From Siphonodentalium dalli (lineage: Eukaryota; Mollusca; Scaphopoda; Gadilida; Siphonodentaliidae), in assembly GCA_032622095.1 (NCBI GenBank), contig CP136061.1, positions 51,781,762 to 51,845,761 of the forward strand: 64,000 bases of DNA, read 5' to 3'. The notes below the pieces were generated by a model, which was given only the letters and a program-made list of their open reading frames with translations, had not been told where the DNA came from and made no database searches. This document shows, one piece after another, positions 1,089-51,407 of the stretch; position 1 is the first letter of the stretch; each line of letters starts with the position of its first letter. Made by a program: the position numbers and the translations under genes.

Positions 1089-1165
1089 GTTATACACCAT
1101 TTTTGGAGTTTCCGGTTTATTCAGCTACCAAGGCTGGTGTTATAGGATTTACCCGATCGCTAGCT
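1089..1165 (+). CDS. HPGD-like: Gene 1, exon a: 15-PGDH-like SDR, catalytic Tyr-Lys exon (partial gene)
   Basis: This 77-nt exon lies between a TTGTAG acceptor and a GTAAGTATTC donor. After two bases that finish a split codon it reads YTPFLEFPVYSATKAG and then VIGFTRSLA. YSATK is the catalytic Tyr-x3-Lys of classical SDRs (Tyr codon 1118-1120, Lys codon 1130-1132). The following GFTRSLA matches the conserved GFTRS stretch of 15-hydroxyprostaglandin dehydrogenase, an NAD-dependent cytosolic enzyme that oxidises the 15-hydroxyl of prostaglandins. The exon ends in phase 0, matching the next exon at 17707. Upstream exons with the nucleotide-binding domain are outside the window. The substrate of this paralogue is unknown. 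The last 18 nt of this exon are copied into every unit of the adjoining minisatellite. Confidence 0.88.
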
Positions 1166-1853
1166 GTAAGTATTCGATATACATTGACATACGTTTACCC
1201 GGTCGCTAGCTGTAAGTATTCGATATACATGGACATACGTTTACCCGGTCGCTAGCTGTAAGTATTCAATATACATGGACATACGTTTACCCGGTCGCTA
1301 GCTGTAAGTATTCGATATACATGGACATACGTTTACCCGGTCGCTAGCTGTAAGTATTCGATATACATGGACATACGATACGTTTACCCGGTCGCTAGCT
1401 GTAAGTATTCGATATACATGGACATACGTTTACCCGGTCGCTAGCTGTAAGTATTCGATATACATGGACATACGTTTACCAGGTCGCTAGCTGTGAGTAT
1501 TCAATATACATGGACATATGTTTACCCGGTCGCTAGCTGTGAGTATTCGATATACATGAACATACGTTTACCCGGTCGCTAGCTGTAAGTATTCGATATA
1601 CATGGACATATGTTTACCCGGTCGCTAGCTGTAAGTGTTCGATATACATGGACATACGTTTACCCGGTCGCTAGCTGTAAGTATTTGATATACATGGACA
1701 TACGTTTACCAGGTCGCTAGCTGTAAGTATTCGATATACATGGACATACGTTTACCCGGTCGCTAGCTGTAAGTGTTCGATATACATGGACATACGTTTA
1801 CCCGGTCGCTAGCTGTAAGTATTCGATATACATGGACATACGTTTACCCGGTA
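1148..1853 (+). repeat. 46-bp splice-donor minisatellite, block A
   Basis: About 15 units. The unit is TTTACCCGGTCGCTAGCT (exon-derived) followed by GTAAGTATTCGATATACATG and GACATACG (intron-derived). The first copy is the real exon end and donor of gene 1 at 1148-1193, with two base differences in the exon part (ATTTACCCGATC against GTTTACCCGGTC). At least one unit has a 5-bp ATACG insertion (near 1375). Confidence 0.95.
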
Positions 1854-2990
1854 TTCGTTTTATGGTTTATGGCAATTATGCCAAAGGGGATGTCAGGAAT
1901 GATAACTTATTGGCAAGGTCCGCAAGCACCACACCGACACACCGAGCAGGCAGATAAAAACCCGCGTGATGCATCGACTGGTAACCGGAAGGCGTGAACC
2001 CACGGCTATCTAAAAGTCAACAAAAACAGTTAGGATAGTAGAACGGTTGATTATTCATCGGTTATGTGAAGTTTTAATTATGCGATAATAGTATAAGGCA
2101 TATACATGTATATATTGAGTATACAGAGAAGTTACACACCCACAGTTACACAAATATAGATAAAGGTCATCGTAGCATGCATTGGATGAGTATATATACC
2201 TGTAGTTCCCGATAAATATAGCTAAAGGTCATCGTAGTGTGCATTAGATGAGAATATATACATGTATAGTTCCTGATAACTATAGTTAAAGGTCATCGTA
2301 GTATATTAGATGTATGGATATTGTTTGCAAATTCCCAAATATATGTTTATGCCGTATATTACCACATTTCCATCCATAGTTATGATGCATAGTCACCCTC
2401 CCCATTTATGTATGATGTATACGACGCCCATCTTACAGTTATCATGTATATCACTCCTTTCCCATTTCATAGTTAAGTTCTATGCCAACATGTTAACGTG
2501 TATGTCAGATATGATAATTTGGGCAAACTATATATAGTTGAAGGTTATCGTCTCTTATTGGACGAGCAGTTACTCATAATATCGTTAAGGGTTATCGTTG
2601 CCCATAGGATTGAAATTGTTAGTAAATTCATAAATATATGGATAGAGTTAAATGGTTTCCATAGATGCATACATACAGCAACAGTTTATCACTGTCAGAT
2701 ATTATATATTTTGATTTTATAAACCTTATTATAAATGGCACACCTTTTCTGGTGGTATGTTTATGTATATGTTTATTGTTATGCAGTGTTTGACTATCAG
2801 TATATCCTGATGGTTTTGGAGGACAAATAATTAACCCATTTTGGAAAATGTTTACTAAGACCATGTCCAAAAGATAGCATTTATAAAGTTGGGATCGAAA
2901 AAACTATACCAGCAAAGAGTTCTCAAGAGCGTAACTCTGGTATAACAGACATCAAATACAGCCTGTTTGTGTGATAGGTTTCGGTATGGA
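1854..2990. repeat. 1.1-kb unique spacer inside the array, copy 1
   Basis: This non-minisatellite segment interrupts the 46-bp array. It has no convincing coding region; the short frames in it are not SDR-like. It contains three imperfect copies of a unit of about 65 bp built around AAAGGTCATCGTAG (2160-2310). An almost identical copy lies at 9005-10140. Confidence 0.9.
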
Positions 2991-5900
2991 CATAAGATAC
3001 GTTTACCCGGTCGCTAGCTGTAAGTATTCGATATACATGGACATACGTTTACCCGGTCGCTAGCTGTGAGTATTGAATACACATGGACATACGTTTACCC
3101 GGTCGCTAGCTGTAAGTGTTCGATATACATGGACATGTGTTTACCCGGTCGCTAGATGCAAGTATTCGATATACATGGACATACGTTTACCCGGTCGCTA
3201 GATGCAAGTATTCGATATACATGGACATGCGTTTACCCGGTCGCTAGCTGTAAGTGTTCGATATACATGGACATACGTTTACCCGGTCGCTAGCTGTAAG
3301 TATTCAATATACATGGACATACGTTTACCAGGTCGCTAGCTGTAAGTATTCAATATACATGGACATACGTTTACCCGGTCGCTAGTTGTAAGTATTCGAT
3401 ATACATTGACATACGTTTACCCGGTCGCTAGCTGTAAGTATTCGATATACATGGACATACGTTTAACCGGTCGCTAGCTGTGAGTATTCGATATACATGG
3501 ACATACGTTTACCCGGTCGCTAGCTGTAAGTATTCGATATACATGGACATACGTTTACCCGGTCGTTAGCTGTAAGTATTCGATATACATGGACATACGT
3601 TTACCCGGTCGCTAGCTGTAAGTATTCGATATACATGGACATACGTTTACCCGGTCGCTAGCTGTAAGTATTCGATATATATGGACATACGTTTACCCAG
3701 TCGCTAGCTGTAAGTATTCGATATACATGGTCATGCATTTATCCGTTCGCTAGCTGTAAGTATTCGATATACATGGACATACGTTTACCCGGTCGCTAGC
3801 TGTAAGTATTCGATATACATGGACATACGTTTACCCGGTCGCTAGCTGTAAGTATTCGATATACATGGACATGTGTTTACCCGGTCGCTAGCTGCACGTA
3901 TTCGATATACATGGACATACGTTTACCCGGTCGCTAGCTGTAAGTATTCGATATACATTGTCATACGTTTACCCGGTCGCTAGATGTAAGTATTCGATAT
4001 ACATGGACATACGTTTACCCGGTCGCTAGCTGCAAGTATTCGATATACATGGTCATACGTTTACCCGGTCGCTAGCTGCAAGTATTCAATATACATGGAC
4101 ATACGTTTACCCGGTCGCTAGCTGTAAGTATTCGATATACATGGACATACGTTTACCCGGTCGCTAGCTGTAAGTATTCGATATACATGGACATACGTTT
4201 ACCCGGTCGCTAGCTGTAAGTATTCGATATATATGGACATACGTTTACCCGGACGCTAGCTGTAAGTATTCGATATACATGGACATACGTTTACCAGGTC
4301 GCTAGCTGCACGTATTCGATATACATGGACATACGTTTACCCGGTCGCTAGCTGTAAGTATTCGATATACATGGACATACGTTTACCCGGTCGCTAGCTG
4401 TAAGTATTCGATATACATGGACATTCGTTTACCCGGTCGCTAGCTGCACGTATTCGATATACATGGACATACGTTTACCCGGTCGCTAGCTGTAAGTATT
4501 CGATATACATGGACATACGTTTACCCGGTCGCTAGCTGTAAGTATTCGATATACATGGACATACGTTTACCCGGTCGCTAGCTGTAAGTATTCGATATAC
4601 ATGGACATACGTTTACCCGGTCGCTAGCTCTAAGTATTCGATATTCATGGACATACGTTTACCCGGTCGCTAGCGTAAGTATTCGATATACATGGACATA
4701 CGTGTACCAGGTCGCTAGCTGTAAGTATTCGATATACATGGACATACGTTTACCCGGTCGCTAGCTGTGAGTATTCGATATACATGGACATACGTTTACC
4801 CGGTCGCTAGCTGTGAGTATTGAATACACATGGACATACGTTTACCCGGTCGCTAGCTGTACGTGTTCGATATACATGGACATGCGTTTACCCGGTCGCT
4901 AGATGCAAGTATTCGATATACATGGACATACGTTTACCCGGTCGCTAGATGCAAGTATTCGATATACATGGACATGCGTTTACCCGGTCGCTAGCTGTAA
5001 GTGTTCGATATACATGGACATACGTTTACCCGGTCGCTAGCTGTAAGTATTCAATATACATGGACATACGATACGTTTATCCGGTCGCTAGCTGTAAGTA
5101 TTCAATATACATGGACATACGTTTACCCGGTCGCTAGCTGTAAGTATTCGATATACATTGACATACGTTTACCCGGTCGCTAGCTGTAAGTATTCGATAT
5201 ACATGGACATACGTTTAACCGGTCGCTAGCTGTGAGTATTCGATATACATGGACATACGTTTACCCGGTCGCTAGCTGTAAGTATTCGATATACATGGAC
5301 ATACGTTTACCCGGTCGTTAGCTGTAAGTATTCGATATACATGGACATAAGTTTACCCGGTCGCTAGCTGTAAGTATTCGATATACATGGACATACGTTT
5401 AACCGGTCGCTAGCTGTGAGTATTCGATATACATGGACATACGTTTACCCGGTCGCTAGCGTAAGTATTCGATATACATGGACATACGTGTACCAGGTCG
5501 CTAGCTGTAAGTATTCGATATACATGGACATACGTTTACCCGGTCGCTAGCTGTGAGTATTCGATATACATGGACATACGTTTACCCGGTCGCTAGCTGT
5601 GAGTATTGAATACACATGGACATACGTTTACCCGGTCGCTAGCTGTACGTGTTCGATATACATGGACATGCGTTTACCCGGTCGCTAGATGCAAGTATTC
5701 GATATACATGGACATACGTTTACCCGGTCGCTAGATGCAAGTATTCGATATACATGGACATGCGTTTACCCGGTCGCTAGCTGTAAGTGTTCGATATACA
5801 TGGACATACGTTTACCCGGTCGCTAGCTGTAAGTATTCAATATACATGGACATACGATACGTTTATCCGGTCGCTAGCTGTAAGTATTCAATATACATGG

Positions 5901-8900
5901 ACATACGTTTACCCGGTCGCTAGCTGTAAGTATTCGATATACATTGACATACGTTTACCCGGTCGCTAGCTGTAAGTATTCGATATACATGGACATACGT
6001 TTAACCGGTCGCTAGCTGTGAGTATTCGATATACATGGACATACGTTTACCCGGTCGCTAGCTGTAAGTATTCGATATACATGGACATACGTTTACCCGG
6101 TCGTTAGCTGTAAGTATTCGATATACATGGACATAAGTTTACCCGGTCGCTAGCTGTAAGTATTCGATATACACGGACATACGTTTACCCGGTCGCTAGC
6201 TGTAAGTATTCGATATACATTGACATACGTTTACCCGGTCGCTAGCTGTAAGTATTGAATACACATGGACATGCGTTTACCCGGTCGCTAGCTGTAAGTA
6301 TTCGATATACATGGACATACGTTTACCCGGTCGCTAGCTGTAAGTATTCGATATATATGGACATACGTTTACCCAGTCGCTAGCTGTAAGTATTCGATAT
6401 ACATGGTCATGCGTTTATCCGTTCGCTAGCTGTAAGTATTCGATATACATGGACTTACGTTTACCCGGTCGCTAGCTGTAAGTATTCGATATACATGGAC
6501 ATACGTTTACCCGGTCGCTAGCTGTAAGTATTCGATATACATGGACATGTGTTTACCCGGTCGCTAGCTGTAAGTATTCGATATACATGGACATACGTTT
6601 ACCCGGTCGCTAGCTGTGAGTATTCGATATACATGGAAATACGTTTAACCGGTCGCTAGATGTAAGTATTCGATATACATGGACATACGTTTACGCGGTC
6701 GCTAGCTGTAAGTATTCGATATACATTGTCATACGTTTACCCGGTCGCTAGATGTAAGTATTCGATATACATGGACATACGTTTACCCGGTCGCTAGCTG
6801 CAAGTATTCGATATACATGGTCATACGTTTACCCGGTCGCTAGCTGCAAGTATTCAATATACATGGACATACGTTTACCCGGTCGCTAGCTGTAAGTATT
6901 CGATATACATGGACATACGTTTACCCGGTCGCTAGCTGTAAGTATTCGATATACATGGACATACGTTTACCCGGTCGCTAGCTGTAAGTATTCGATATAT
7001 ATGGACATACGTTTACCCGGACGCTAGCTGTAAGTATTCGATATACATGGACATACGTTTACCAGGTCGCTAGCTGCACGTATTCGATATACATGGACAT
7101 ACGTTTACCCGGTCGCTAGCTGTAAGTATTCGATATACATGGACATACGTTTACCCGGTCGCTAGCTGTAAGTATTCGATATACATGGACATACGTTTAC
7201 CCGGTCGCTAGCTGCACGTATTCGATATACATGGACATACGTTTACCCGGTCGCTAGCTGTAAGTATTCGATATACATGGACATACGTTTACCCGGTCGC
7301 TAGCTGTAAGTATTCGATATACATGGACATACGTTTACCCGGTCGCTAGCTCTAAGTATTCGATATTCATGGACATACGTTTACCCGGTCGCTAGCGTAA
7401 GTATTCGATATACATGGACATACGTGTACCAGGTCGCTAGCTGTAAGTATTCGATATACATGGACATACGTTTACCCGGTCGCTAGCTGTGAGTATTCGA
7501 TATACATGGACATACGTTTACCCGGTCGCTAGCTGTGAGTATTGAATACACATGGACATACGTTTACCCGGTCGCTAGCTGTACGTGTTCGATATACATG
7601 GACATGCGTTTACCCGGTCGCTAGATGCAAGTATTCGATATACATGGACATACGTTTACCCGGTCGCTAGATGCAAGTATTCGATATACATGGACATGCG
7701 TTTACCCGGTCGCTAGCTGTAAGTGTTCGATATACATGGACATACGATACGTTTATCCGGTCGCTAGCTGTAAGTATTCAATATACATGGACATACGTTT
7801 ACCCGGTCGCTAGCTGTAAGTATTCGATATACATGGACATACGTTTACCCGGTCGCTAGCTGTAAGTATTCGATATACATGGACATACGTTTAACCGGTC
7901 GCTAGCTGTGAGTATTCGATATACATGGACATACGTTTACCCGGTCGCTAGCTGTAAGTATTCGATATACATGGACATACGTTTACCCGGTCGTTAGCTG
8001 TAAGTATTCGATATACATGGACATAAGTTTACCCGGTCGCTAGCTGTAAGTATTCGATATACACGGACATACGTTTACCCGGTCGCTAGCTGTAAGTATT
8101 CGATATACATTGACATACGTTTACCCGGTCGCTAGCTGTAAGTATTGAATACACATGGACATGCGTTTACCCGGTCGCTAGCTGTAAGTATTCGATATAC
8201 ATGGACATACGTTTACCCGGTCGCTAGCTGTAAGTATTCGATATATATGGACATACGTTTACCCAGTCGCTAGCTGTAAGTATTCGATATACATGGTCAT
8301 GCGTTTATCCGTTCGCTAGCTGTAAGTATTCGATATACATGGACTTACGTTTACCCGGTCGCTAGCTGTAAGTATTCGATATACATGGACATACGTTTAC
8401 CCGGTCGCTAGCTGTAAGTATTCGATATACATGGACATGTGTTTACCCGGTCGCTAGCTGTAAGTATTCGATATACATGGACATACGTTTACCCGGTCGC
8501 TAGCTGTGAGTATTCGATATACATGGAAATACGTTTAACCGGTCGCTAGATGTAAGTATTCGATATACATGGACATACGTTTACCCGGTCGCTAGCTGTA
8601 AGTATTCGATATACATTGTCATACGTTTACCCGGTCGCTAGATGTAAGTATTCGATATACATGGACATACGTTTACCCGGTCGCTAGCTGCAAGTATTCG
8701 ATATACATGGTCATACGTTTACCCGGTCGCTAGCTGCAAGTATTCAATATACATGGACATACGTTTACCCGGTCGCTAGCTGTAAGTATTCGATATACAT
8801 GGACATACGTTTACCCGGTCGCTAGCTGTAAGTATTCGATATACATGGACATACGTTTACCCGGTCGCTAGCTGTAAGTATTCGATATATATGGACATAC

Positions 8901-9001
8901 GTTTACCCGGTCGCTAGCTGTAAGTGTTCGATATACATGGACATACGTTTACCCGGTCGCTAGCTGTAAGTATTCGATATACATGGACATACGTTTACCC
9001 G
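2991..9001 (+). repeat. 46-bp splice-donor minisatellite, block B
   Basis: About 130 units of the same 46-bp repeat in the same orientation. Most carry CTGTAAGTATTC. Variants with GTGAGT, GCAAGT, GCACGT and the donor-killing CTCTAAGT recur in the same order at several places. For example, the block at 4949-5183 is repeated at 5735-5969, 786 bp away. Marker variants such as ATCCGTTCGCTAG recur near 3740, 6420 and 8305. This shows higher-order duplication of multi-unit segments. Confidence 0.95.
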
Positions 9002-10137
9002 GTATTCGTTTTATGGTTTATGGCAATTATGCCAAAGGGGATGTCAGGAATGATAACTTATTGGCAAGGTCCGCAAGCACCACACCGACACACCGAGCAG
9101 GCAGATAAAAACCCGCGTGATGCATCGACTGGTAACCGGAAGGCGTGAACCCACGGCTATCTAAAAGTCAACAAAAACAGTTAGGATAGTAGAACGGTTG
9201 ATTATTCATCGGTTATGTGAAGTTTTAATTATGCGATAATAGTATAAGGCATATACATGTATATATTGAGTATACAGAGAAGTTACACACCCACAGTTAC
9301 ACAAATATAGATAAAGGTCATCGTAGCATGCATTGGATGAGTATATATACCTGTAGTTCCCGATAAATATAGATAAAGGTCATCGTAGTGTGCATTAGAT
9401 GAGAATATATACATGTATAGTTCCTGATAAATATAGTTAAAGGTCATCGTAGTATATTAGATGTATGGATATTGTTTGCAAATTCCCAAATATATGTTTA
9501 TGCCGTATATTACCACATTTCCATCCATAGTTATGATGCATAGTCACCCTCCCCATTTATGTATGATGTATACGACGCCCATCTTACAGTTATCATGTAT
9601 ATCACTCCTTTCCCATTTCATAGTTAAGTTCTATGCCAACATGTTAACGTGTATGTCAGATATGATAATTTGGGCAAACTATATATAGTTGAAGGTTATC
9701 GTCTCTTATTGGACGAGCAGTTACTCATAATATCGTTAAGGGTTATCGTTGCCCATAGGATGAAAATTGTTAGTAAATTCATAAATATATGGATAGAGTT
9801 AAATGGTTTCCATAGATGCATACATACAGCAACAGTTTATCGCTGTCAGATATTATATATTTTGATTTTATAAACCTTATTATAAATGGCACACCTTTTC
9901 TGGTGGTATGTTTATGTATATGTTTATTGTTATGCAGTGTTTGACTATCAGTATATCCTGATGGTTTTGGAGGACAAATAATTAACCCATTTTGGAAAAT
10001 GTTTACTAAGACCATGTCCAAAAGATAGCATTTATAAAGTTGGGATCGAAAAAACTATACCAGCAAAGAGTTCTCAAGAGCGTAACTCTGGTATAACAGA
10101 CATCAAATACAGCCTGTTTGTGTGATAGGTTTCGGTA
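9002..10137. repeat. 1.1-kb unique spacer inside the array, copy 2
   Basis: Near-identical to 1854-2990, with only a handful of substitutions seen by eye (for example GATTGAAATT against GATGAAAATT, and ATCACTGTC against ATCGCTGTC). The offset is 7151 bp, so one event duplicated at least the spacer with an array segment. No gene is recognised in it. Confidence 0.9.
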
Positions 10138-13100
10138 TGGACATACGATACGTTTACCCGGTCGCTAGCTGTAAGTATTCGATATACATGGACATACGTT
10201 TACCCGGTCGCTAGCTGTGAGTATTGAATACACATGGACATACGTTTACCCGGTCGCTAGCTGTAAGTGTTCGATATACATGGACATGCGTTTACCCGGT
10301 CGCTAGATGCAAGTATTCGATATACATGGACATACGTTTACCCGGTCGCTAGATGCAAGTATTCGATATACATGGACATGCGTTTACCCGGTCGCTAGCT
10401 GTAAGTGTTCGATATACATGGACATACGTTTACCCGGTCGCTAGCTGTAAGTATTCAATATACATGGACATACGTTTACCAGGTCGCTAGCTGTAAGTAT
10501 TCAATATACATGGACATACGTTTACCCGGTCGCTAGCTGTAAGTATTCGATATACATTGACATACGTTTACCCGGTCGCTAGCTGTAAGTATTCGATATA
10601 CATGGACATACGTTTAACCGGTCGCTAGCTGTGAGTATTCGATATACATGGACATACGTTTACCCGGTCGCTAGCTGTAAGTATTCGATATACATGGACA
10701 TACGTTTACCCTGTCGTTAGCTGTAAGTATTCGATATACATGGACATACGTTTACCGGGTCGCTAGCTGTAAGTATTCGATATACACGGACATACGTTTA
10801 CCCGGTCGCTAGCTGTAATTATTCGATATACATTGACATACGTTTACCCGGTCGCTAGCTGTAAGTATTGAATACACATGGACATGCGTTTACCCGGTCG
10901 CTAGCTGTAAGTATTCGATATACATGGACATACGTTTACCCGGTCGCTAGCTGTAAGTATTCGATATATATGGACATATGTTTACCCAGTCGCTAGCTGT
11001 AAGTATTCGATATACATGGTCATGCGTTTATCCGTTCGCTAGCTGTAAGTATTCGATATACATGGACATACGTTTACCCGGTCGCTAGCTGTAAGTATTC
11101 GATATACATGGACATACGTTTACCCGGTCGCTAGCTGTAAGTATTCGATATACATGGACATGTGTTTACCCGGTCGCTAGCTGTAAGTATTCGATATACA
11201 TGGACATACGTTTACCCGGTCGCTAGCTGTGAGTATTCGATATACATGGAAATACGTTTAACCGGTCGCTAGCTGCACGTATTCGATATACATGGACATA
11301 CGTTTACCCGGTCGCTAGCTGTAAGTATTCGATATACATGGACATACGTTTACCCGGTCGCTAGCTGAAAGTATTCGATATACATGGACATACGTTTACC
11401 CGGTCGCTAGCTGCACGTATTCGATATACATGGACATACGTTTACCCGGTCGCTAGCTGTAAGTATTCGATATACATGGACATACGTTTACCCGGTCGCT
11501 AGCTGTAAGTATTCGATATACATGGACATACGTTTACCCGGTCGCTAGCTCTAAGTATTCGATATTCATGGACATACGTTTACCCGGTCGCTAGCGTAAG
11601 TATTCGATATACATGGACATACGTGTACCAGGTCGCTAGCTGTAAGTATTCGATATACATGGACATACGTTTACCCGGTCGCTAGCTGTGAGTATTCGAT
11701 ATACATGGACATACCTTTACCCGGTCGCTAGCTGTGAGTATTGAATACACATGGACATACGTTTACCCGGTCGCTAGCTGTAAGTATTCGATATACATGG
11801 ACATACGTTTACCCGGTCGCTAGATGCAAGTATTCGATATACATGGACATGCGTTTACCCGGTCGCTAGCTGTAAGTGTTCGATATACATGGACATACGT
11901 TTACCCGGTCGCTAGCTGTAAGTATTCGATATACATTGACATACGTTTACCCGGTCGCTAGCTGTAAGTATTCAATATACATGGACATACGTTTACCAGG
12001 TCGCTAGCTGTAAGTATTCAATATACATGGACATACGTTTACCCGGTCGCTAGCTGTAAGTATTCGATATACATTGACATACGTTTACCCGGTCGCTAGC
12101 TGTAAGTATTCGATATACATGGACATACGTTTAACCGGTCGCTAGCTGTGAGTATTCGATATACATGGACATACGTTTACCCGGTCGCTAGCTGTAAGTA
12201 TTCGATATACATGGACATACGTTTACCCGGTCGTTAGCTGTAAGTATTCGATATACATGGACATACGTTTACCCGGTCGCTAGCTGTAAGTATTCGATAT
12301 ACACGGACATACGTTTACCCGGTCGCTAGCTGTAAGTATTCGATATACATTGACATACGTTTACCCGGTCGCTAGCTGTAAGTATTGAATACACATGGAC
12401 ATGCGTTTACCCGGTCGCTAGCTGTAAGTATTCGATATACATGGACATACGTTTACCCGGTCGCTAGCTGTAAGTATTCGATATATATGGACATACGTTT
12501 ACCCAGTCGCTAGCTGTAAGTATTCGATATACATGGTCATGCGTTTATCCGTTCGCTAGCTGTAAGTATTCGATATACATGGACATACGTTTACCCGGTC
12601 GCTAGCTGTAAGTATTCGATATACATGGACATACGTTTACCCGGTCGCTAGCTGTAAGTATTCGATATACATGGACATGTGTTTACCCGGTCGCTAGCTG
12701 TAAGTATTCGATATACATGGACATACGTTTACCCGGTCGCTAGCTGTGAGTATTCGATATACATGGAAATACGTTTAACCGGTCGCTAGATGTAAGTATT
12801 CGATATACATGGACATACGTTTACCCGGTCGCTAGCTGTAAGTATTCGATATACATTGTCATACGTTTACCCGGTCGCTAGATGTAAGTATTCGATATAC
12901 ATGGACATACGTTTACCCGGTCGCTAGCTGCAAGTATTCGATATACATGGTCATACGTTTACCCGGTCGCTAGCTGCAAGTATTCAATATACATGGACAT
13001 ACGTTTACCCGGTCGCTAGCTGTAAGTATTCGATATACATGGACATACGTTTACCCGGTCGCTAGCTGTAAGTATTCGATATACATGGACATACGTTTAC

Positions 13101-16100
13101 CCGGTCGCTAGCTGTAATTATTCGATATATATGGACATACGTTTACCCGGACGCTAGCTGTAAGTATTCGATATACATGGACATACGTTTACCAGGTCGC
13201 TAGCTGCACGTATTCGATATACATGGACATACGTTTACCCGGTCGCTAGCTGTAAGTATTCGATATACATGGACATACGTTTACCCGGTCGCTAGCCGTA
13301 AGTATTCGATATACATGGACATACGTTTACCGGGTCGCTAGCTGCACGTATTCGATATACATGGACATACGTTTACCAGGTCGCTAGCTGTAAGTATTCG
13401 ATATACATGGGCATACGTTTACCCGGTCGCTAGCTGTAAGTATTCGATATACATTGACATACGTTTACCCGGTTGCTAGCTGTAAGTATTCGATATACAT
13501 GGACATACGTTTACCCGATCGCTAGCTGTAAGTATTCGATATACATGGACATACGTTTACCCGGTCGCTAGCTCTAAGTATTCGATATTCATGGACATGC
13601 GTTTACCCGGTCGATAGCTGTGAGTATTCGATATACATGGACATACGTTTACCCGGTCGCTAGCTGTAAGTATTCGATATACATGGACATACGTTTAACC
13701 GGTCGCTAGATGTAAGTATTCGACATACATGGACATACGTTTACCCGGTCGCTGGCTGTAAGTATTCCATATACATTGTCATACGTTTACCCGGTCGCTA
13801 GATGTAAGTATTCGATATACATGGACATACGTTTACCCGGTCGCTAGCTGCAAATATTCGATATACATGGTCATACGTTTACCCGGTCGCTAGCTGCAAG
13901 TATTCAATATACATGGACATACGTTTACCCGGTCGCTAGCTGTAAGTATTCGATATACATGGACATACGTTTACCCGGTCGCTAGCTGTAAGTATTCGAT
14001 ATACATGGACATACGTTTACCCGGTCGCTAGCTGTAAGTATTCGATATATATGGACATACGTTTACCCGGACGCTAGCTGTAAGTATTCGATATACATGG
14101 ACATACGTTTACCAGGTCGCTAGCTGCACGTATTCGATATACATGGACATACGTTTACCCGGTCGCTAGCTGTAAGTATTCGATATACATGGACATACGT
14201 TTACCCGGTCGCTAGCTGAAAGTATTCGATATACATGGACATACGTTTACCCGGTCGCTAGCTGCACGTATTCGATATACATGGACATACGTTTACCCGG
14301 TCGCTAGCTGTAAGTATTCGATATACATGGACATACGTTTACCCGGTCGCTAGCTGTAAGTATTCGATATACATGGACATACGTTTACCCGGTCGCTAGC
14401 TCTAAGTATTCGATATTCATGGACATACGTTTACCCGGTCGCTAGCGTAAGTATTCGATATACATGGACATACGTGTACCAGGTCGCTAGCTGTAAGTAT
14501 TCGATATACATGGACATACGTTTACCCGGTCGCTAGCTGTGAGTATTCGATATACATGGACATACCTTTACCCGGTCGCTAGCTGTAAGTGTTCGATATA
14601 CATGGACATACGTTTACCCGGTCGCTAGATGCAAGTATTCGATATACATGGACATACGTTTACCCGGTCGCTAGATGCAAGTATTCGATATACATGGACA
14701 TGCGTTTACCCGGTCGCTAGCTGTAAGTGTTCGATATACATGGACATACGTTTACCCGGTCGCTAGCTGTAAGTATTCAATATACATGGACATACGTTTA
14801 CCAGGTCGCTAGCTGTAAGTATTCAATATACATGGACATACGTTTACCCGGTCGCTAGCTGTAAGTATTCGATATACATTGACATACGTTTACCCGGTCG
14901 CTAGCTGTAAGTATTCGATATACATGGACATACGTTTAACCGGTCGCTAGCTGTGAGTATTCGATATACATGGACATACGTTTACCCGGTAGCTAGCTGT
15001 AAGTATTCGATATACATGGACATACGTTTACCCGGTCGTTAGCTGTAAGTATTCGATATACATGGACATACGTTTACCCGGTCGCTAGCTGTAAGTATTC
15101 GATATACACGGACATACGTTTACCCGGTGGCTAGCTGTAAGTATTCGATATACATTGACATACGTTTACCCGGTCGCTAGCTGTAAGTATTGAATACACA
15201 TGGACATGCGTTTACCCGGTCGCTAGCTGTAAGTATTCGATATACATGGACATACGTTTACCCGGTCGCTAGCTGTAAGTATTCGATATATATGGACATA
15301 CGTTTACCCAGTCGCTAGCTGTAAGTATTCGATATACATGGTCATGCGTTTATCCGTTCGCTAGCTGTAAGTATTCGATATACATGGACATACGTTTACC
15401 CGGTCGCTAGCTGTAAGTATTCGATATACATGGACATACGTTTACCCGGTCGCTAGCTGTAAGTATTCGATATACATGGACATGTGTTTACCCGGTCGCT
15501 AGCTGTAAGTATTCGATATACATGGACATACGTTTACCCGGTCGCTAGCTGTGAGTATTCGATATACATGGAAATACGTTTAACCGGTCGCTAGATGTAA
15601 GTATTCGATATACATGGACATACGTTTACCCGGTCGCTAGCTGTAAGTATTCGATATACATTGTCATACGTTTACCCGGTCGCTAGTTGTAAGTATTCGA
15701 TATACATGGACATACGTTTACCCGGTCGCTAGCTGCAATTATTCGATATACATGGTCATACGTTTACCCGGTCGCTAGCTGCAAGTATTCAATATACATG
15801 GACATACGTTTACCCGGTCGCTAGCTGTAAGTATTCGATATACATGGACATACGTTTACCCGGTCGCTAGCTGTAAGTATTCGATATACATGGACATACG
15901 TTTACCCGGTCGCTAGCTGTAATTATTCGATATATATGGACATACGTTTACCCGGACGCTAGCTGTAAGTATTCGATATACATGGACATACGTTTACCAG
16001 GTCGCTAGCTGCACGTATTCGATATACATGGACATACGTTTACCCGGTCGCTAGCTGTAAGTATTCGATATACATGGACATACGTTTACCCGGTCGCTAG

Positions 16101-17330
16101 CCGTAAGTATTCGATATACATGGACATACGTTTACCCGGTCGCTAGCTGCACGTATTCGATATACATGGACATACGTTTACCAGGTCGCTAGCTGTAAGT
16201 ATTCGATATACATGGGCATACGTTTACCCGGTCGCTAGCTGTAAGTATTCGATATACATTGACATACGTTTACCCGGTTGCTAGCTGTAAGTATTCGATA
16301 TACATGGACATACGTTTACCCGGTCGCTAGCTGTAAGTATTCGATATACATGGACATACGTTTACCCGGTCGCTAGCTCTAAGTATTCGATATTCATGGA
16401 CATGCGTTTACCCGGTCGATAGCTGTGAGTATTCGATATACATGGACATACGTTTACCCGGTCGCTAGCTGTAAGTATTCGATATACATGGACATACGTT
16501 TACCCGGTCGCTAGCGTAAGTATTCGATATACATGGACATACGTGTACCAGGTCGCTAGCTGTAAGTATTCGATATACATGGACATACGTTTACCCGGTC
16601 GCTAGCTGTGAGTATTCGATATACATGGACATACGTTTACCAGGTCGCTAGCTGTAAGTATTCGATATACATGGACATACGTTTACCCGGTCGCTAACTG
16701 TAAGTATTCGATATACATGGACATACGTTTACCCGGTCGCTAGCTGTAAGTATTCGATATACATGGACATACGTTTACCCGGTCGCTAGCTGTAAGTATT
16801 CGATATACATGGACATACGTTTACCCGGTCGCTAGCTGTGAGTATTCGATATACATGGACATATGTTTACCCGGTCGCTAGCTGTAAGTATTCGATATAC
16901 ATGGACATATGTTTACCCGGTCGCTAGCTGTAAGTATTCGATATACATGGACATGCGTTTACCCGGTCGCTAGCTGTAAGTATTCGATATACATGGACAT
17001 ATGTTTACCCGGTCGCTAGCTGTAAGTATTCAATATACATGGACATACGTTTACCCAGTCGCTAGCTGTAAGTATTCGATATACATGGACATGCGTTTAC
17101 CCGGTCGCTAGCTGCAAGTATTCGATATACATGGACATGCGTTTACCCGGTCGCTAGCTGCAAGTATTCGATATACATGGACATGCGTTTACCCGGTCGC
17201 TAGCTGTAAGTATTCGATATACATGGACATACGTTTACCCGGTCGCTAGCCGTAAGTATTCGATATACATGGACATACGTTTACCCGGTCGCTAGCTATA
17301 CGTATTCGATATATATGGACATATGTAGTA
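10138..17330 (+). repeat. 46-bp splice-donor minisatellite, block C
   Basis: About 155 further units in the same orientation. Marker variants (CTCTAAGTATTCGATATTC near 11549, 13572, 14400 and 16377; ATCCGTTCGCTAG near 11032, 12546 and 15350) again show large duplicated segments of about 1.5 to 2.8 kb. The last degenerate unit ends near 17330 with GCTATACGTATTCG, where the donor is lost. Confidence 0.95.
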
Positions 17331-17706
17331 CATTTTCAGGTATCATATCAGTAAATATTGCCAAGGGTTAGACAAAGCTGGGGCTGGAATAATTGAAAAC
17401 GAAACCCAACGTATGCTGTCGCTCATAAAGACTAAGCATCATGAAAATCACCTTGATGTATTACCGTATTCGTTACTGCAATGGTTGGACTATTCAACTG
17501 AGAGTAATTTGGGTCAACAAACTTAGTAGAAATTGCCAGCGGTTGTTGTTGTATACATGGACAATTCCATTCGATTCACAGTTTGGGGTGAGGAACACAT
17601 GCGGTCGCGCACACCCCTGCGACTCTGCTTTCCGACTTATGGTTGCTCTGGGAGTTGGATAGAATATGTGGGGTCCTGATTTGAACGACGACTGGTCTCT
17701 TTTCAG
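17331..17706 (+). other. 3' end of the gene 1 16.5-kb intron
   Basis: Unique sequence between the array and the next exon. It ends with GGTCTCTTTTCAG at 17694-17706, a good 3' splice site. No separate gene is seen. The whole intron is 1166-17706. Confidence 0.7.
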
Positions 17707-17852
17707 CTTCGACCGGAACTGAAGAATCATAACATCCGACTGAATGTGTTTTGCCCGTGGTTCACTGCGACCCAATTACTTTCAGACAACAGTAAGGGTC
17801 TTCCGACGGACGCCAGCATATTTAAAGTGATAGAATTATCTGGTGTCATGAG
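17707..17852 (+). CDS. HPGD-like: Gene 1, exon b: 15-PGDH-like SDR, post-catalytic region
   Basis: This 146-nt exon lies between TTTTCAG and GAG|GTAAGTC. It reads LRPELKNHNIRLNVFCPWF and then TATQLLSDNSKGLPTDAS and IFKVIELSGVM in one frame. It begins in phase 0, as required by exon a, and ends with two bases (AG) of a split codon that exon c completes. RLNVFCPWFTAT corresponds to the RLNAICPGFVNT stretch of 15-PGDH, the segment after the catalytic Lys that contacts the nicotinamide side. A Trp replaces the usual Gly after CP, which may alter the pocket. IELSGVM aligns with the KYYGILDPP region of the human enzyme. The joined peptide TRSLA-LRPEL keeps the family spacing, which supports splicing across the 16.5-kb intron. 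Confidence 0.88.
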
Positions 17853-18149
17853 GTAAGTCAGTATACAAACATATACGCAAATCAAACTGTTGATACTTGA
17901 GTAACAATCCCAATGTATGGAAAATGAATTATCCTTCAAAGTCTAACGCCAATAACTCTAGCACATACATATGGGCGAAGACCACTGGATTATCGTATAG
18001 TTCCAGCGATGCTGGTATAATAGTAATTATACAATATATAATCCTTTATGGTCTGAATCATTGATACTGAACTTACAATTCAAAATGTCAGTGTTGTGTG
18101 AAATTGTTGAAGTCCAGCGAGGACCGTAACTCCGTTATAATGAATGGAC
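17853..18149 (+). other. 5' part of gene 1 last intron
   Basis: Starts with the donor GTAAGTCAGT. The rest is AT-rich and shows no gene. Confidence 0.6.
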
Positions 18150-19075
18150 GAGCCCCGTAGTAAGTGTCCCCCCATAAAGGGTCATCAGCACACCGAACCC
18201 CTTGGTAAGTGCCCCCCCCCATAAAGGGTCATCAGCACGCCGAACTCCGTGGTAAGTGTCCCCCCATAAAGGGTCATCAGCACACCGAACCCCGTAGTAA
18301 GTGTCCCCCCCCATAAAGGGTCATCAGCAAACCAAACCCCGTAGTAAGTGTCCTCCCATAAATGGTCATCAGCACACCGAACCCCGTAGTAAGTGTCCCC
18401 CCCATTAAGGGTCATCAGCACACCGAACCCCGTAGTAAGTGTCCCCCCATAAAGGGTCATCAGCACACCGAACCCCGTAGCAAGTGTCCCCCATAAAGGG
18501 TCATCAACACACCGAACCCCGTAGTAAGTGTCCCCCCATAAAGGGTCATCAGCACACCGAACCCCGTAGTAAGTGTCCCCCCATAAAGGGTCATCAGAAC
18601 ACCGAACCCCGTAGTAAGTGTCCCCCCATAAAGGGTCATCAGCACACCGAACCCCGTAGTAAGTGTCCCCCATAAAGGGTCATCAGCACACCGAACCCCG
18701 TAGTAAGTGTCCCCCGTAAAGGGTCATCAGCACACCGAACCCCGTAGTAAGTTCCCCCCCCCCCCATAAAGGGTCATCAGCACACCGAACCCCGTTGTAA
18801 GTGCCCCCCCCCCCCATAAAGGGTCATCAGCACACCGAACCCCGTAGTAAGTGTCCCCCCATAAAGGGTCATCAGCACACCGAACCCCGTAGTAAGTGTC
18901 CCCACATAAAGGGTCATCAGCACACCGAACCCCGTAGTAAGTGTCCCCCCATAAATGGTCATCAGCACACCGAACCCCGTAGTAAGTGTTCCCGCATAAA
19001 GGGTCATCAGCACACCGAACCCCGTGGTAAGTGGGCATCGTATCCCCCATAAAGGGTCATCAGCATACCGAAGCC
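18150..19075. repeat. 45-bp minisatellite in gene 1 last intron
   Basis: About 20 units built from CCGAACCCCGTAGTAAGTGT, a C run of variable length (about 4 to 11), then ATAAAGGGTCATCAGCACA. The C run causes most of the length variation and shifts reading frames, so the minus-strand frames (GDTYYGVRCADDPLW type) are by-products. Each unit also contains AGTAAGTGT, a weaker donor-like sequence. It is not related to the 46-bp unit. Confidence 0.93.
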
Positions 19076-19844
19076 CAACTGAATTCGATGATCAACACCA
19101 CATTTACAACGTTAACTGTTAGTATGGACACGCACTTCACAAATTTACAAGTACAGCAGGAGCCGTAATTCAAATAAACATAAAGAGACGAAATCTATCC
19201 AATATTGTTGAGTCATCTCTTGTTTTTTCGTGGATCTTCATACAAGCCTTAACAGATCTAGCTAAATATTTCTGCAATGCTGAGTTTTCGCTACCGGGTA
19301 AAATATAAAAAGTGCTATAAATGGTTCTTGTCAAAAGTTAGCCGGGATATATTTCATTCTTAGATTCTGGTATTTTGGATAAATCATCACAAATTGGTAC
19401 TCTATGTGCACCCTGTATTTAAACAAGTATAAGCTCGGGATCTTTCTTTATTTTTACTCCGTCTCACAGTAGCGCAGTTTGTGATTTCATGTTCTTACTC
19501 GTAACAGTTCCTGGGATAGGTCACGCGGTAGATTTGTCAAATATGATTCATATTTCATTGTCCGTTTAAAGTTCATGTTTTATTATCGCGAGAGGAGATG
19601 TGCATGTCCCTCCACCACGTCTGAATAAAATTATCTTTGAATGTGCTCCCGATGGCACTTATTTGTTCGAGTGAAAGTTTGTGGCATGTCCATAATAAAC
19701 TTATACCGACGGAATCCAATATGCCTTTAACTGGATTAACGTTTTCACGTTGTTCGTCCTACACACGTACATCTCTCCAAATCTGACAAAAAGGAGATAA
19801 AGTTCCCGCGCTATATACAGGCGAACACACACCGTTTATTATGC
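19076..19844. other. Intronic stretch, no feature seen
   Basis: AT-rich sequence of the gene 1 last intron, with no recognisable coding region or repeat. Confidence 0.5.
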
Positions 19845-41827: not shown

Positions 41828-42234
41828 TTGAGCCCCGGGGGTGACATCCGTTTTTCTTTTATAAAGTCGTGGCCACGAGAATAAGGTCGTGGCCACGAGC
41901 ATAAGGTCGTGGCCACGAGAATAAGGCCGTGGCCACGAGGATATGAAGTCGTGGCCACGAGAATAAGGTCGTGCCCACGATAATATGAAGTCGTGGCCAC
42001 GAGAATAAGGTCGTGGCCACGAGAATATGAAGTCGTGGCCACGCGACTATGAAGTCGTGGCCACGACCTAATTCGTGGCCACGACTTTATTATCGTGGCC
42101 ACGACTTCATATTCTCGTGGCCACGACTTAATTCTCGTGGCCACGACCTTATTCTCGTGGGCACGCTTTATTCTCATGGCCACGACTTCATATTCTCGTG
42201 GCCACGACTTTCGGATGTCACCTCAGGGGCTCCA
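41828..42234. mobile_element. Foldback element of TCGTGGCCACGA units, copy 1
   Basis: Ends TTGAGCCCCGGGGGTGACAT and ATGTCACCTCAGGGGCTCCA are imperfect inverses. The inside is a tandem array of about 17 to 20 bp units, each a 12-bp palindrome TCGTGGCCACGA joined by GAATAAGG-like linkers. The linker orientation flips near 42065, so the whole element is one large foldback. Both ends abut TA. Confidence 0.85.
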
Positions 42235-46829: not shown

Positions 46830-49805
46830 TTATAAAAGGATGGAAGATGCTACCAATTTCAAACCGATGGTATTTCTTCAGAGTTGACTCTCTTGTATTA
46901 TGAAAGCAAGCCCAATGAGGCCATGCACCTATTGTATGTTTATAACACACAAAAGACTATATCTTAGCAGAATGCATGTCTCTGATGGTACAAACAATAA
47001 AATATCCAATTTATCCATAGTTGAATTTCATTTGGCTATATAGGAAAGCATACAATGTGGCTTTTGTGTAGTTTACACAAAGTATTTTAAGTAAAATATC
47101 CATCAAGTGATGTATTCTGCCTTGTCCTATATATTAAAATGCATGCAATGGCCATGATAAATGCTTAATTTATTGGTAGAGATATCCATCTGATAAGAAA
47201 TACTGACATTTTAGGTTTGATACACCATTTCAGCTGGCTTGGCATCTTTTAAATTTGAAACCTAAGGGAATTTATTCAGCTTTGACTCTCTAAATTATGG
47301 AAGAAAGCCCAAATGAAGCCACTATTTGCATGTTAATAACATGTATAAGGCTATATCTCAACAGAATACATGTCTCTGATAAAATGCACAATAAAATATC
47401 CATAGTTCAATTGCATTTGGCTATAGAGGGATGCATACAATCTTGCTTTTATGTAGTTTCAACAGACTATTTTAAGTAAAATATCCATCAAATGATGTGT
47501 TCTACATAGCCTTGTATATTAAAATGCATGTCATGACCATGGGAAATGTTTAATTCATTAGTTGATATGTCCATCTGATAAGAAATACTGACATTTGAGG
47601 TTTAAAATACCATTTCATGGGATTATGGGATCATAAATATCAAACTAAGGGAATTTCTTCAGATTTGACTCTCTAAATAATGGAAGAAAGCCCAAATGAA
47701 GCCACTATTTGCACATTAATGACATGTATAAGGCTATATCTCAACAGAATACATGTCTCTGATAAAATACACAATAAAATATCCATAGTTTAATTGCATT
47801 TGGCTATAGAGGGATGCATACAATATTGCTTTTATGTAGTTTCCACAGACTATTTTAAGTAAGATATCCATCAAATAATGTTTTCTACCTTGCCCTATAT
47901 ATCATAATGCATGCAGTGACCATGAGAAATGTTTAATCTATTGGGAGAGATGTCCATCTGATAAGAAATACTGCCATTTAAGGTTTGATACACCATTTCA
48001 GCTTTAAAATAAGGGAATCTCTTCAGGTTTGACTCTCTAAATTATGGAAGCAAGCCCAAATGAAGCCACTATTTGCATGTTTATAACCAACATAAGGCTA
48101 TATCTCAACAGAATACATGTCTCTGATGAAATCAACAATAAAATATCAACAGTTTAATTTGTTTTGGCTATACAGGGATACATACAACATGGCTTTTATG
48201 TTGTTTCCACAGACTATTTTAAGTAAAATATCCATCAAATGATGTGTTCTGCCTTATCCTGTATATTAAAATGCATTCAATGACCATGAATTTTTTTTAA
48301 TTTATTGGTAGAGATGTCCATCTGATAAGAAAAAAAACTGCCATTTGAGGTTTGATACACCATTTCAGCTGGCTTGGCATCTTACAAATTTGAAATAAGG
48401 GAATTTATTCAGCTTTGACCCTCTAAATTATGGAAAAAAGCCTAAATGATGCCATTATTGGCATGTTTATAATATATATAAGGCTATATCTGAACAGAAT
48501 ACATGTCTCAGATGAAATAAACAATACAATATCCATAGTTTAATTTGATTTGGCTATACGGGGATGCATACAATATTGCTTTTATGTAGTTTCCACAGAC
48601 TATTTTAAGTAAAATATCCATCAAATGATGTTTCCTACATTGCCTTGTATATTAAAATGCATGCAATGACCATGAGAAATGTTTAATTTATTGGTAGAGA
48701 TGTCCATCTGATAAGAAATACTGCCATTTAAGGTTTGATACACCATTTCAGCTGGCTTGGCATCTTATAAATTTTAAATAAGGCAATCTCTTCAGCTTTG
48801 ACTCTCTAAATTATGGAAGAAAGCCCAAATGAAGCCACTATTTGCATGTTTATAACATATATAAGGTTATATCTCAACAGAATACATGTCTCTGATGAAA
48901 TAAACAATAACATATCAATAGTTTAATTTTATTTGGCTATACAGGGATGCATACAATATTGCTTTTATGTAGTTTCCACAGACTATTTTAAATAAAATAT
49001 CCATCAAATGATGTTTTCTACATTGCCTTGTATATTAAAATGGATGCAATGACCATGATAAATGTTTAATTTATTGGTAGAGATGTCCATCTGATAAGAA
49101 ATACTGCCATTTGAGGTTTGATACACCATTTCAGCTGGCTTGGCATCTTATAAATTTGAAATAAGGGAATCTATTCAGCTTTGACTCTCTAAATTATGGA
49201 AGAAAGCTCAAATGAGGCCACTATTTGCATGTTTATAACATATATAAGGCTATATCTCAACAGAATACATGTCTCTGATGAAATAAACAATAAAATATCC
49301 ATAGTTGTATTTCATTTGGCTATACATTGATGCATACAATATGGCTTTTAGGTAGTGTCCACAAAATATTTTAAGTAAAATATTCAAAATATAATGTAAT
49401 CTACCTTGTCCTGTACATTAAAATCCATGCAATGATCATGAGAAATGTTTAATTTATTGGCAGAGATATCCATCTAATAAAGAAGTACTAACATTTGATG
49501 TTTGTGACATCAATTCAGCAGGCCAGACATGCTACAACTTTCAAACTAAGAGAATTTCCTCATATTTGACTCTCTAAATGATGGAAGTTAGCCCAAATGA
49601 AGCAACTATTTGCATGTCTATAATGTATAAGGCTATATAAAATAATAACATGTCTATAGTTCATAGTTCAGTTGGCTAGACAGGGTGCATAAAATATGGC
49701 TTTAAGTTAGTTTTCAAAAACTAGAATATCTATCAAATGATGTAATCTACCTTCCCCTGTGTATTAAAAGTGCATGCAATGACCTGAGAAATGTTTAGTT
49801 TATTG
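46830..49805. repeat. 380-bp satellite, about eight tandem copies
   Basis: The landmark TTGACTCTCTAAATTATGGA or a variant occurs near 46886, 47283, 47667, 48031, 48417, 48799, 49182 and 49568, a spacing of 364 to 397 bp. Other constant parts include GGCTATATCTCAACAGAATA and GATGTCCATCTGATAAGAAA. The copies are AT-rich, share no open frame, and are most diverged at the two outer copies. Confidence 0.92.
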
Positions 49806-50907: not shown

Positions 50908-51407
50908 TTGAGCCCCGGAGGTGACATCCGAATGTTTTTTAAGTCGTGGCCACGAGAATTAAGGCCACGAGAATAAAGTCGAGGTTACGAGAATATGAAG
51001 TCGTGGCCACGAGAACATGAAGTCGTGGTCACGAGCATATGAAGTCGTGGCCACGAGCATATGAAGTCGTGGCCACGAGAACATGAAGTCGTGGTCACGA
51101 GCATATGAAATCGTGGCCACGAGAATATGAAGTCGTGGCCACGAGAATATTAAGTCGGGGCCATGAGACTATGAAGTCGTGGGCACGACCTTATTCTCGT
51201 GGCCACGACTTTATTCTCGTGGCCACGACCATATTATCGTGGCCACGACCATATTCTCGTGGCCACGACTTTATTCTCGTAGCCACGACTTTATTCTCGT
51301 GGCCACAACTTTTTTCCCGTGGCCACAACCATATTCTCGTAGCCACGACTTCATATTCTCGTGGCCACGACTTAAAAAAAACATTCGGATGTCAGCTCCG
51401 TGGCTCC
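50908..51407. mobile_element. Foldback element of TCGTGGCCACGA units, copy 2
   Basis: Same family as 41828-42234. The ends are TTGAGCCCCGGAGGTGACAT and ATGTCAGCTCCGTGGCTCC. The 11-bp sequence ATATAAAGGTA directly flanks both ends (50897-50907 and 51408-51418) and looks like a target-site duplication. Its length suits Mutator-type transposases. The internal unit orientation flips near 51180. No coding capacity. Confidence 0.85.

Follow-up and report, generated by a model that had tools for sequence, protein, structure and literature searches.

The 64,000-nucleotide stretch of contig CP136061.1 of the scaphopod mollusc Siphonodentalium dalli analysed here (hereafter, the window) contains a gene of the short-chain dehydrogenase/reductase (SDR) family, most of one intron of which, between a donor at position 1166 and an acceptor ending at 17706, is filled by a head-to-tail array of a 46-bp unit on the sense strand of the gene. 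The sequence of the unit identifies this array as an amplified exon-intron junction that originated from the donor junction of the upstream exon (exon A). The array is quite probably a tolerated, neutral minisatellite that arose at the splice junction of exon A, with the first donor being the one used, rather than a purpose-built device for binding U1 small nuclear RNA (U1).

Origin and architecture of the array

Exon A of this gene, which resembles 15-hydroxyprostaglandin dehydrogenase (15-PGDH), occupies 1089..1165 on the + strand (translation from 1094), follows the acceptor TTGTAG| at 1088 and ends in TPFLEFPVYSATKAGVIGFTRSLA. Exon B (17707..17852, +), starting with LRPELKNHNIRLNVFCPWFT and preceded by the acceptor TTTTCAG, has its own donor, ATGAG|GTAAGTCAG, that is not repeated in the downstream sequence. 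Spliced together, the two exons jointly make up a short-chain dehydrogenase segment (Pfam adh_short, PF00106, E 2.2e-10), and the A|B junction aligns without gaps to solved 15-PGDH chains (best E 6.6e-10). Exon ends here and below were placed using domain matches, reading frames and GT/AG.

The unit, TTTACCCGGTCGCTAGCT|GTAAGTATTCGATATACATGGACATACG, consists of 18 nt of exon end and 28 nt of intron start. Its first 18 bp, the coding nature of which was overlooked in the first-pass annotation of the window, are the last 18 nt of coding exon A (TTTACCCGATCGCTAGCT, Phe-Thr-Arg-Ser-Leu-Ala, FTRSLA) apart from an A-to-G difference in the Arg codon, which is silent, and the first donor site of the array is exon A's own donor, GTAAGTAT (1166..1173, +). 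The residues GFTRS at the end of exon A are also found in the solved 15-PGDH chains and thus belong to a conserved protein segment. Because the end of exon A is old, conserved protein sequence, the exon came first and the array derives from it. We propose the term 'exon-donor junction array' for a repeat of this kind, the unit of which joins a coding exon end, a donor and the beginning of an intron, with the true junction as the first unit.

The array extends over 1148-17325, which bears out an earlier delineation of 1148-17330, except that the array is not continuous but is interrupted twice by a 1.15-kb spacer (about 1853-2996 and 9004-10147). Its three blocks, all on the + strand, lie at 1148..1852 (15 full units and 10 bp), 2997..9003 and 10148..17325, around two non-repeat spacer copies (1853..2996 and 9004..10147, both +); the last recognisable unit starts at 17280 and reads ATACGT where the donor is expected. 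According to Tandem Repeats Finder, the 46-bp repeat occupies 1148-1852 and 2997-17323. When the array is divided by wrap-around alignment, 301 complete units are obtained, each of which differs from the consensus in 0 to 4 columns, 20 inserted bases apart; 76 of the 301 match the consensus in every column. With its 46-bp unit and 301 full copies, the array falls within the minisatellite class (units of ~10-100 bp, tens to hundreds of copies). No open reading frame (ORF) of at least 100 amino acids is present inside the array on either strand, and a coding array is accordingly rejected.

Counting insertions, there are 76 distinct unit types, the order of which along the array is non-random, and an identical run of 16 consecutive unit types recurs 41 units away. 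The two spacer copies differ by 6 mismatches in 1149 aligned bp (99.48% identity). Together, the spacer pair and the recurring run point to the duplication of long stretches of the array, in recent times to judge from the identity. Divergence is flat along the array, with a mean of 1.3 to 1.5 differences per unit when the array is cut in tenths. A DNA search of the 2.23-Gb, nine-contig assembly returns 133 matches to the 46-bp repeat, every one at this locus; this search skips very common words, so that its counts are lower bounds, and the copy number is that of a single assembly.

Junction arrays at other exons

The next intron of the same gene carries a second, different array (18149..19076, +) with a 45-bp unit containing GTAGTAAGTGTCC and 19 GTAAGT motifs in 928 bp; no exon end was identified as its source. 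The exon A array is nevertheless not the only one of its kind. SDR paralogues retain the intron position, and in the eight contig 3 sequences inspected, the exon A donor is ordinary. In these paralogues, the exon B donor (e.g. GGCTAG|GTTAGTAAC) starts a different array, in all seven exon B regions inspected. The paralogues with exon B donor arrays (L002-L012 and L014-L018) are located at 71.57-71.76 Mb and 79.5-79.64 Mb of contig 3, and Tandem Repeats Finder, run on five 4-kb pieces of that contig, reports units of ~41-46 bp and arrays of up to 3.7 kb that run past the end of the piece. In another SDR paralogue, which neighbours the gene described here (contig 1, 51862500-51865500), the exon B match contains a stop codon and is directly followed by a diverged second version of this exon.

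Exon ends were surveyed across the genome in 140 exon matches with flanking DNA, drawn from four unrelated families, namely, kinases (19), myosins (21), kinesins (60) and mitochondrial carriers (40), with the regions chosen from the match lists before the DNA was seen. For the kinases (PF00069), 19 of the 135 listed matches were taken, with the 3' end inside the domain, leaving out a cluster at 149.8-150.6 Mb of contig 2 and near-duplicates. The myosin set (PF00063; 21 of 85) was hand-picked, one match per near-identical cluster, with some genes contributing two exons, whereas the kinesin set (PF00225) comprises the first 60 of 123 matches after four near-identical paralogue matches were skipped, often with several exons per gene. 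The carriers (PF00153; 40 of 94) were taken in list order, omitting open frames longer than 240 amino acids, second matches in one exon and near-duplicates.

In this sample, 9 of the 140 donors, at nine different places, lie inside tandem repeats that take in the exon edge. Eight were found by script and one (L139) by eye; because Tandem Repeats Finder may miss repeats that have diverged, the survey counts are lower bounds. The repeat units are 55 bp (L036), 67 bp in two copies (L043), 31 bp in two copies with ~4 nt of exon (L068), 60 bp (L088), 90 bp (L091), 30 bp in at least 12 copies (L107), 34 bp in at least 11 copies at the kinesin MNLVDLAG motif (L109, ATGAACCTAGTAGATTTAGCAG|GTAACTATGACT), 47 bp (L115) and ~43 bp in the diverged array recognised by eye (L139). 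The later copies of the arrays diverge in L036 and L139. Junction copying is therefore widespread in this genome, affecting several per cent of the sampled exon ends, and the exon-donor junction array recurs independently, in the contig 3 paralogues and at the nine sampled donors.

Acceptor arrays that include the exon edge were found at 2 of the 140 exons (L122 and L125); at three more (L037, L057 and L107), arrays reach the acceptor and enter the exon by no more than ~1 nt. The difference between nine donor and two acceptor arrays is associated with a Fisher p of 0.06, and the symmetric script alone gives 8 vs 2; given that L139 was added by eye, this asymmetry is suggestive only. The array at L122 (1-359 of the region at 100911652-100912633 of contig 5) is the acceptor-side mirror of the donor arrays: it consists of nearly eight copies of a 44-bp unit, in each of which an entire 3' splice region (TACTAAT, pyrimidines, TGCAG) is followed by ~11 nt of exon start.

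Repeats cover positions 20-340 bp outside the matches in 4-9 of the 140 regions upstream and 3-10 downstream, compared with none of the 140 at mid-hit. The similar coverage at donors and elsewhere in introns implies that donors are struck about as often as other intron sequence, with exon interiors protected.

Donor content and explanations by function

The first-pass annotation counted about 300 tandem donor sites, and this figure agrees with the 301 complete units, but not all of these units keep a GT donor: the donor position holds GT in 252 and GC in 40, GTRAGT in 246, GTAAGT in 216 and GTAAGTAT in only 203. All the donor sites are on the strand of the gene, within one intron, as that annotation had it. 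Over 1148-17330, GTAAGT occurs 216 times on the + strand, compared with ~3 expected by chance; the background in 20001-64000 is 0.20 per kb on each strand. The proposed pairing of the donors with the U1 5' end over +1 to +8 holds as well, since the U1 genes of this genome start with AUACUUACCUG (three loci read). The U1 genes form a tandem cluster at 103.84-103.90 Mb of contig 1, with a spacing of ~2.15 kb, and at least 42 U1 matches were scored genome-wide.

By simple duplex energy, 246 of the 301 units equal or surpass exon A's own donor, which hence has no intrinsic advantage over its copies. The reading frame does single it out: joined to exon B, all 251 inner GT donors give a stop, so that the donor at 1166 is the sole frame-keeping GT donor among 252, open to the end of exon B. 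Both counts are what would be expected of an expression brake, whereby some transcripts would splice from inner donors, hit a stop and undergo nonsense-mediated decay, with the length of the array tuning output and varying among individuals. However, the use of inner donors is hypothetical, and the frequency of arrays at donors is close to that of repeats elsewhere in introns, which suggests little cost or benefit. A brake of this kind is therefore unlikely, even if it fares better than the other alternatives.

A selected U1 platform, which would attract large amounts of U1 and thereby shield the long intron against premature polyadenylation, or serve as a splicing decoy or timer, appears still less probable. 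Such roles had been suggested when the array was first noticed, and the hundreds of sense-strand sites complementary to the genome's own U1, a property of telescripting elements, speak for them. However, the variability of the unit columns does not. The number of non-consensus letters per column is 16.8 for donor positions +1 to +6, compared with 6.8 for the exon-derived part, 9.4 for columns 27-46 and 9.3 for all 46 columns; in 42 of the 46 circular blocks of six columns, the mean is no higher than that of the donor block. Variability peaks at donor +2, where 40 units have C in place of T, and the order is the same when the 73 distinct unit sequences count once each (donor, 5.7; exon part, 2.4; columns 27-46, 3.25). 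The copied donors thus show no visible extra constraint, and their greater variability is the opposite of what selection for U1 sites predicts, although the units share descent, which makes a formal test of selection by column variability unsafe.

Nor does the array contain canonical polyadenylation signals for U1 to suppress. In 1166-17323, spacers included, AATAAA and ATTAAA are both absent (AGTAAA occurs twice), so that the nearby cryptic polyadenylation signals associated with telescripting are lacking; as bare motifs, 56 AATAAA and 28 ATTAAA (84 in total) are present in 17707-64000. A 46-bp unit devoid of the signal yields zero by itself, and hence this absence argues against need and not for design. 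Moreover, the intron minus the array would be short and would need little protection. The other two lines of evidence come from the rest of the genome. Similar arrays are found at unrelated genes, with later copies diverged in two cases, and the tandem repeats of this genome have no excess of the donor 8-mer AGGTAAGT: three AGGTAAGT in tandem spacing give 2151 matches genome-wide, compared with 2127 for the single reversed pattern used as the control, and the places listed group into 6 vs 10 loci over the initial 84.8 Mb of contig 1. Thus, the selected platform finds no support in column variability, polyadenylation signal content, the reversed-pattern control or the recurrence at other genes.

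The possibility that the array is an artefact, with repeat copies inflated or collapsed in assembly, has to be considered because long arrays are hard to assemble and the duplication of the spacer could, in principle, be a misjoin. The non-random order of the 76 unit types and the independent, shorter junction arrays at other genes make this very improbable.

Recursive splicing, with the units as ratchet points for the stepwise removal of a long intron with repeated donors, is hardly credible and is rejected on sequence: AGGTAAGT is absent from 1166-17323 (AGGT alone occurs there 32 times), no pyrimidine-tract acceptor in the array is detected by a simple pattern (a strict one, which gives only a single hit in 20001-64000), and the unit reads AGCT|GTAAGT, with AG 2 nt upstream of GT, and not the AG|GT of a dual-specific splice site.

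A probable tolerated minisatellite and its implications

In the explanation favoured here, that of a neutral minisatellite, a 46-bp stretch across the exon A junction (18 nt of exon and 28 nt of intron) would have been duplicated in tandem and then expanded over many rounds. One of these would have been a duplication of several kilobases, recent to judge from the 99.5% identity, that copied the 1.15-kb spacer as well. Splicing from 1166 to exon B would give the normal protein, the downstream copies being just more intron, and the array would persist because exon A and the original donor stay intact at its upstream edge. More generally, local tandem duplication would strike anywhere, to be purged in exons, free in introns and tolerated across donors because the upstream copy leaves the exon and its donor intact. 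A working gene would require the first donor to beat the 251 other GT donors, and the donor at 1166 is presumably the one used. The likeliest reason would be that this donor is transcribed first, is captured by U1 that moves along with RNA polymerase II, and adjoins a defined exon. A study in human cells reports that polymerase II-tethered U1 pairs with the upstream donor in the nascent transcript, that this donor remains attached during the synthesis of the intron, and that U1 is found with the polymerase at cryptic intronic sites as well (PMC8316553). The array copies may bind U1 without consequence or may send a minority of transcripts to nonsense-mediated decay.

Several considerations weigh against this explanation. 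In a selected array, too, the units would pair with U1 no less well than the first donor does, as 246 of the 301 still do, and the shared descent of the units prevents column variability from serving as a clean test of selection. Both the use of the donor at 1166 and the expression of the gene are predictions from sequence. The array is the longest of all the junction arrays seen here, although several others ran past the fetched DNA. Some donor-competition systems are reported to use the intron-proximal donor, and by that rule this gene would be expected to run into difficulty. Finally, downstream repeat coverage is 8-10 of 140 at +60 to +200 compared with 3-4 at +300 to +340 and with most of the 4-9 seen upstream, which leaves room for a mild pull of repeats towards donors; part of the coverage at these offsets comes from the junction arrays themselves, so that a donor-specific mutation bias is neither claimed nor excluded.

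The neutral minisatellite can be set in a broader frame, which is offered tentatively and is itself rather doubtful: about one in every sixteen donors (9 of 140) may have turned into an array of exon end and donor, in 2 to ~300 copies, with the genes surviving by upstream-first donor choice. How the spliceosome chooses among equal donors is a classic question, for which reporters with a handful of sites are the usual approach. In the present case, one gene presents 252 GT donors of nearly equal local sequence with one acceptor and a single productive outcome, and the sampled exons add examples in which the copy number ranges from 2 to at least 12. If the upstream-first rule is true, the genome is a natural titration series of equal-strength donors for one acceptor, with the first transcribed donor winning over hundreds in vivo, and the rule would have left its evolutionary footprint in the slight surplus of donor arrays relative to acceptor arrays (9 vs 2 of 140). 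If nearly all transcripts use the first donor, this would be direct evidence that donor choice follows a first-transcribed, polymerase-tethered or exon-adjacent rule; if the first donor does not dominate, the array shows how a gene survives massive mis-splicing. Should the frequency of 9 in 140 hold, gene annotation and splice-site predictors would often be misled in this genome.

Links between splice sites and tandem arrays in evolution have a history: a 2007 paper by Zhuo et al. in PNAS reportedly derives human introns from tandem arrays. No title on donor-junction arrays was found among the open-licence PubMed Central papers listed. Duan et al. (2024) describe 792 human introns in 262 tandem repeats, including introns with dual-specific (AG|GT) sites, e.g. 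in UBC and VCX3A (PMC10809524). As in the array described here, splice sites lie inside the tandem repeat units, but where they are dual-specific, intron length is a multiple of unit length and a single motif acts as donor and acceptor, whereas the 46-bp unit lacks AG|GT and carries a donor only, and its array lies wholly downstream of a normal exon. Intron gain through tandem duplication of proto-splice sites in Drosophila (2010, PMC2891723) likewise involves the tandem duplication of exonic sequence with a splice motif; in S. dalli, no new intron results, and an existing donor junction is copied into its own intron, in high copy number. Intron 1 of the earthworm metallothionein gene contains an intronic minisatellite (PMC12783039), which is similar in being a long intronic array of minisatellite-size units; the unit here differs in straddling the exon edge and carrying a donor. 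Many U1-complementary sites within an intron are also a feature of U1 telescripting (PMC5499120, PMC8316553), from which the array departs in its lack of canonical polyadenylation signals and in donor positions that are not conserved.

Other repeats came to light in the course of the analysis. In the window, palindromic TCGTGGCCACGA forms tandem arrays with ~20-bp spacing at 41860-42211 and 50948-51371, in which the strand of the spacer seems to flip part-way, and an A+T-rich tandem repeat with a 383-bp unit (7.2 copies) occupies 46872-49638. A long satellite on contig 1 (231979802-232050252) has a 26-bp unit, GTAAGTCTCGTACATACAACTAACAG, with a donor-like start and an end that resembles a branch point and an acceptor. 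Local gene duplication is rampant in this genome; at 149.83-150.60 Mb of contig 2, more than 80 stop-free kinase-domain open frames with nearly equal scores are found on one strand within 0.77 Mb.

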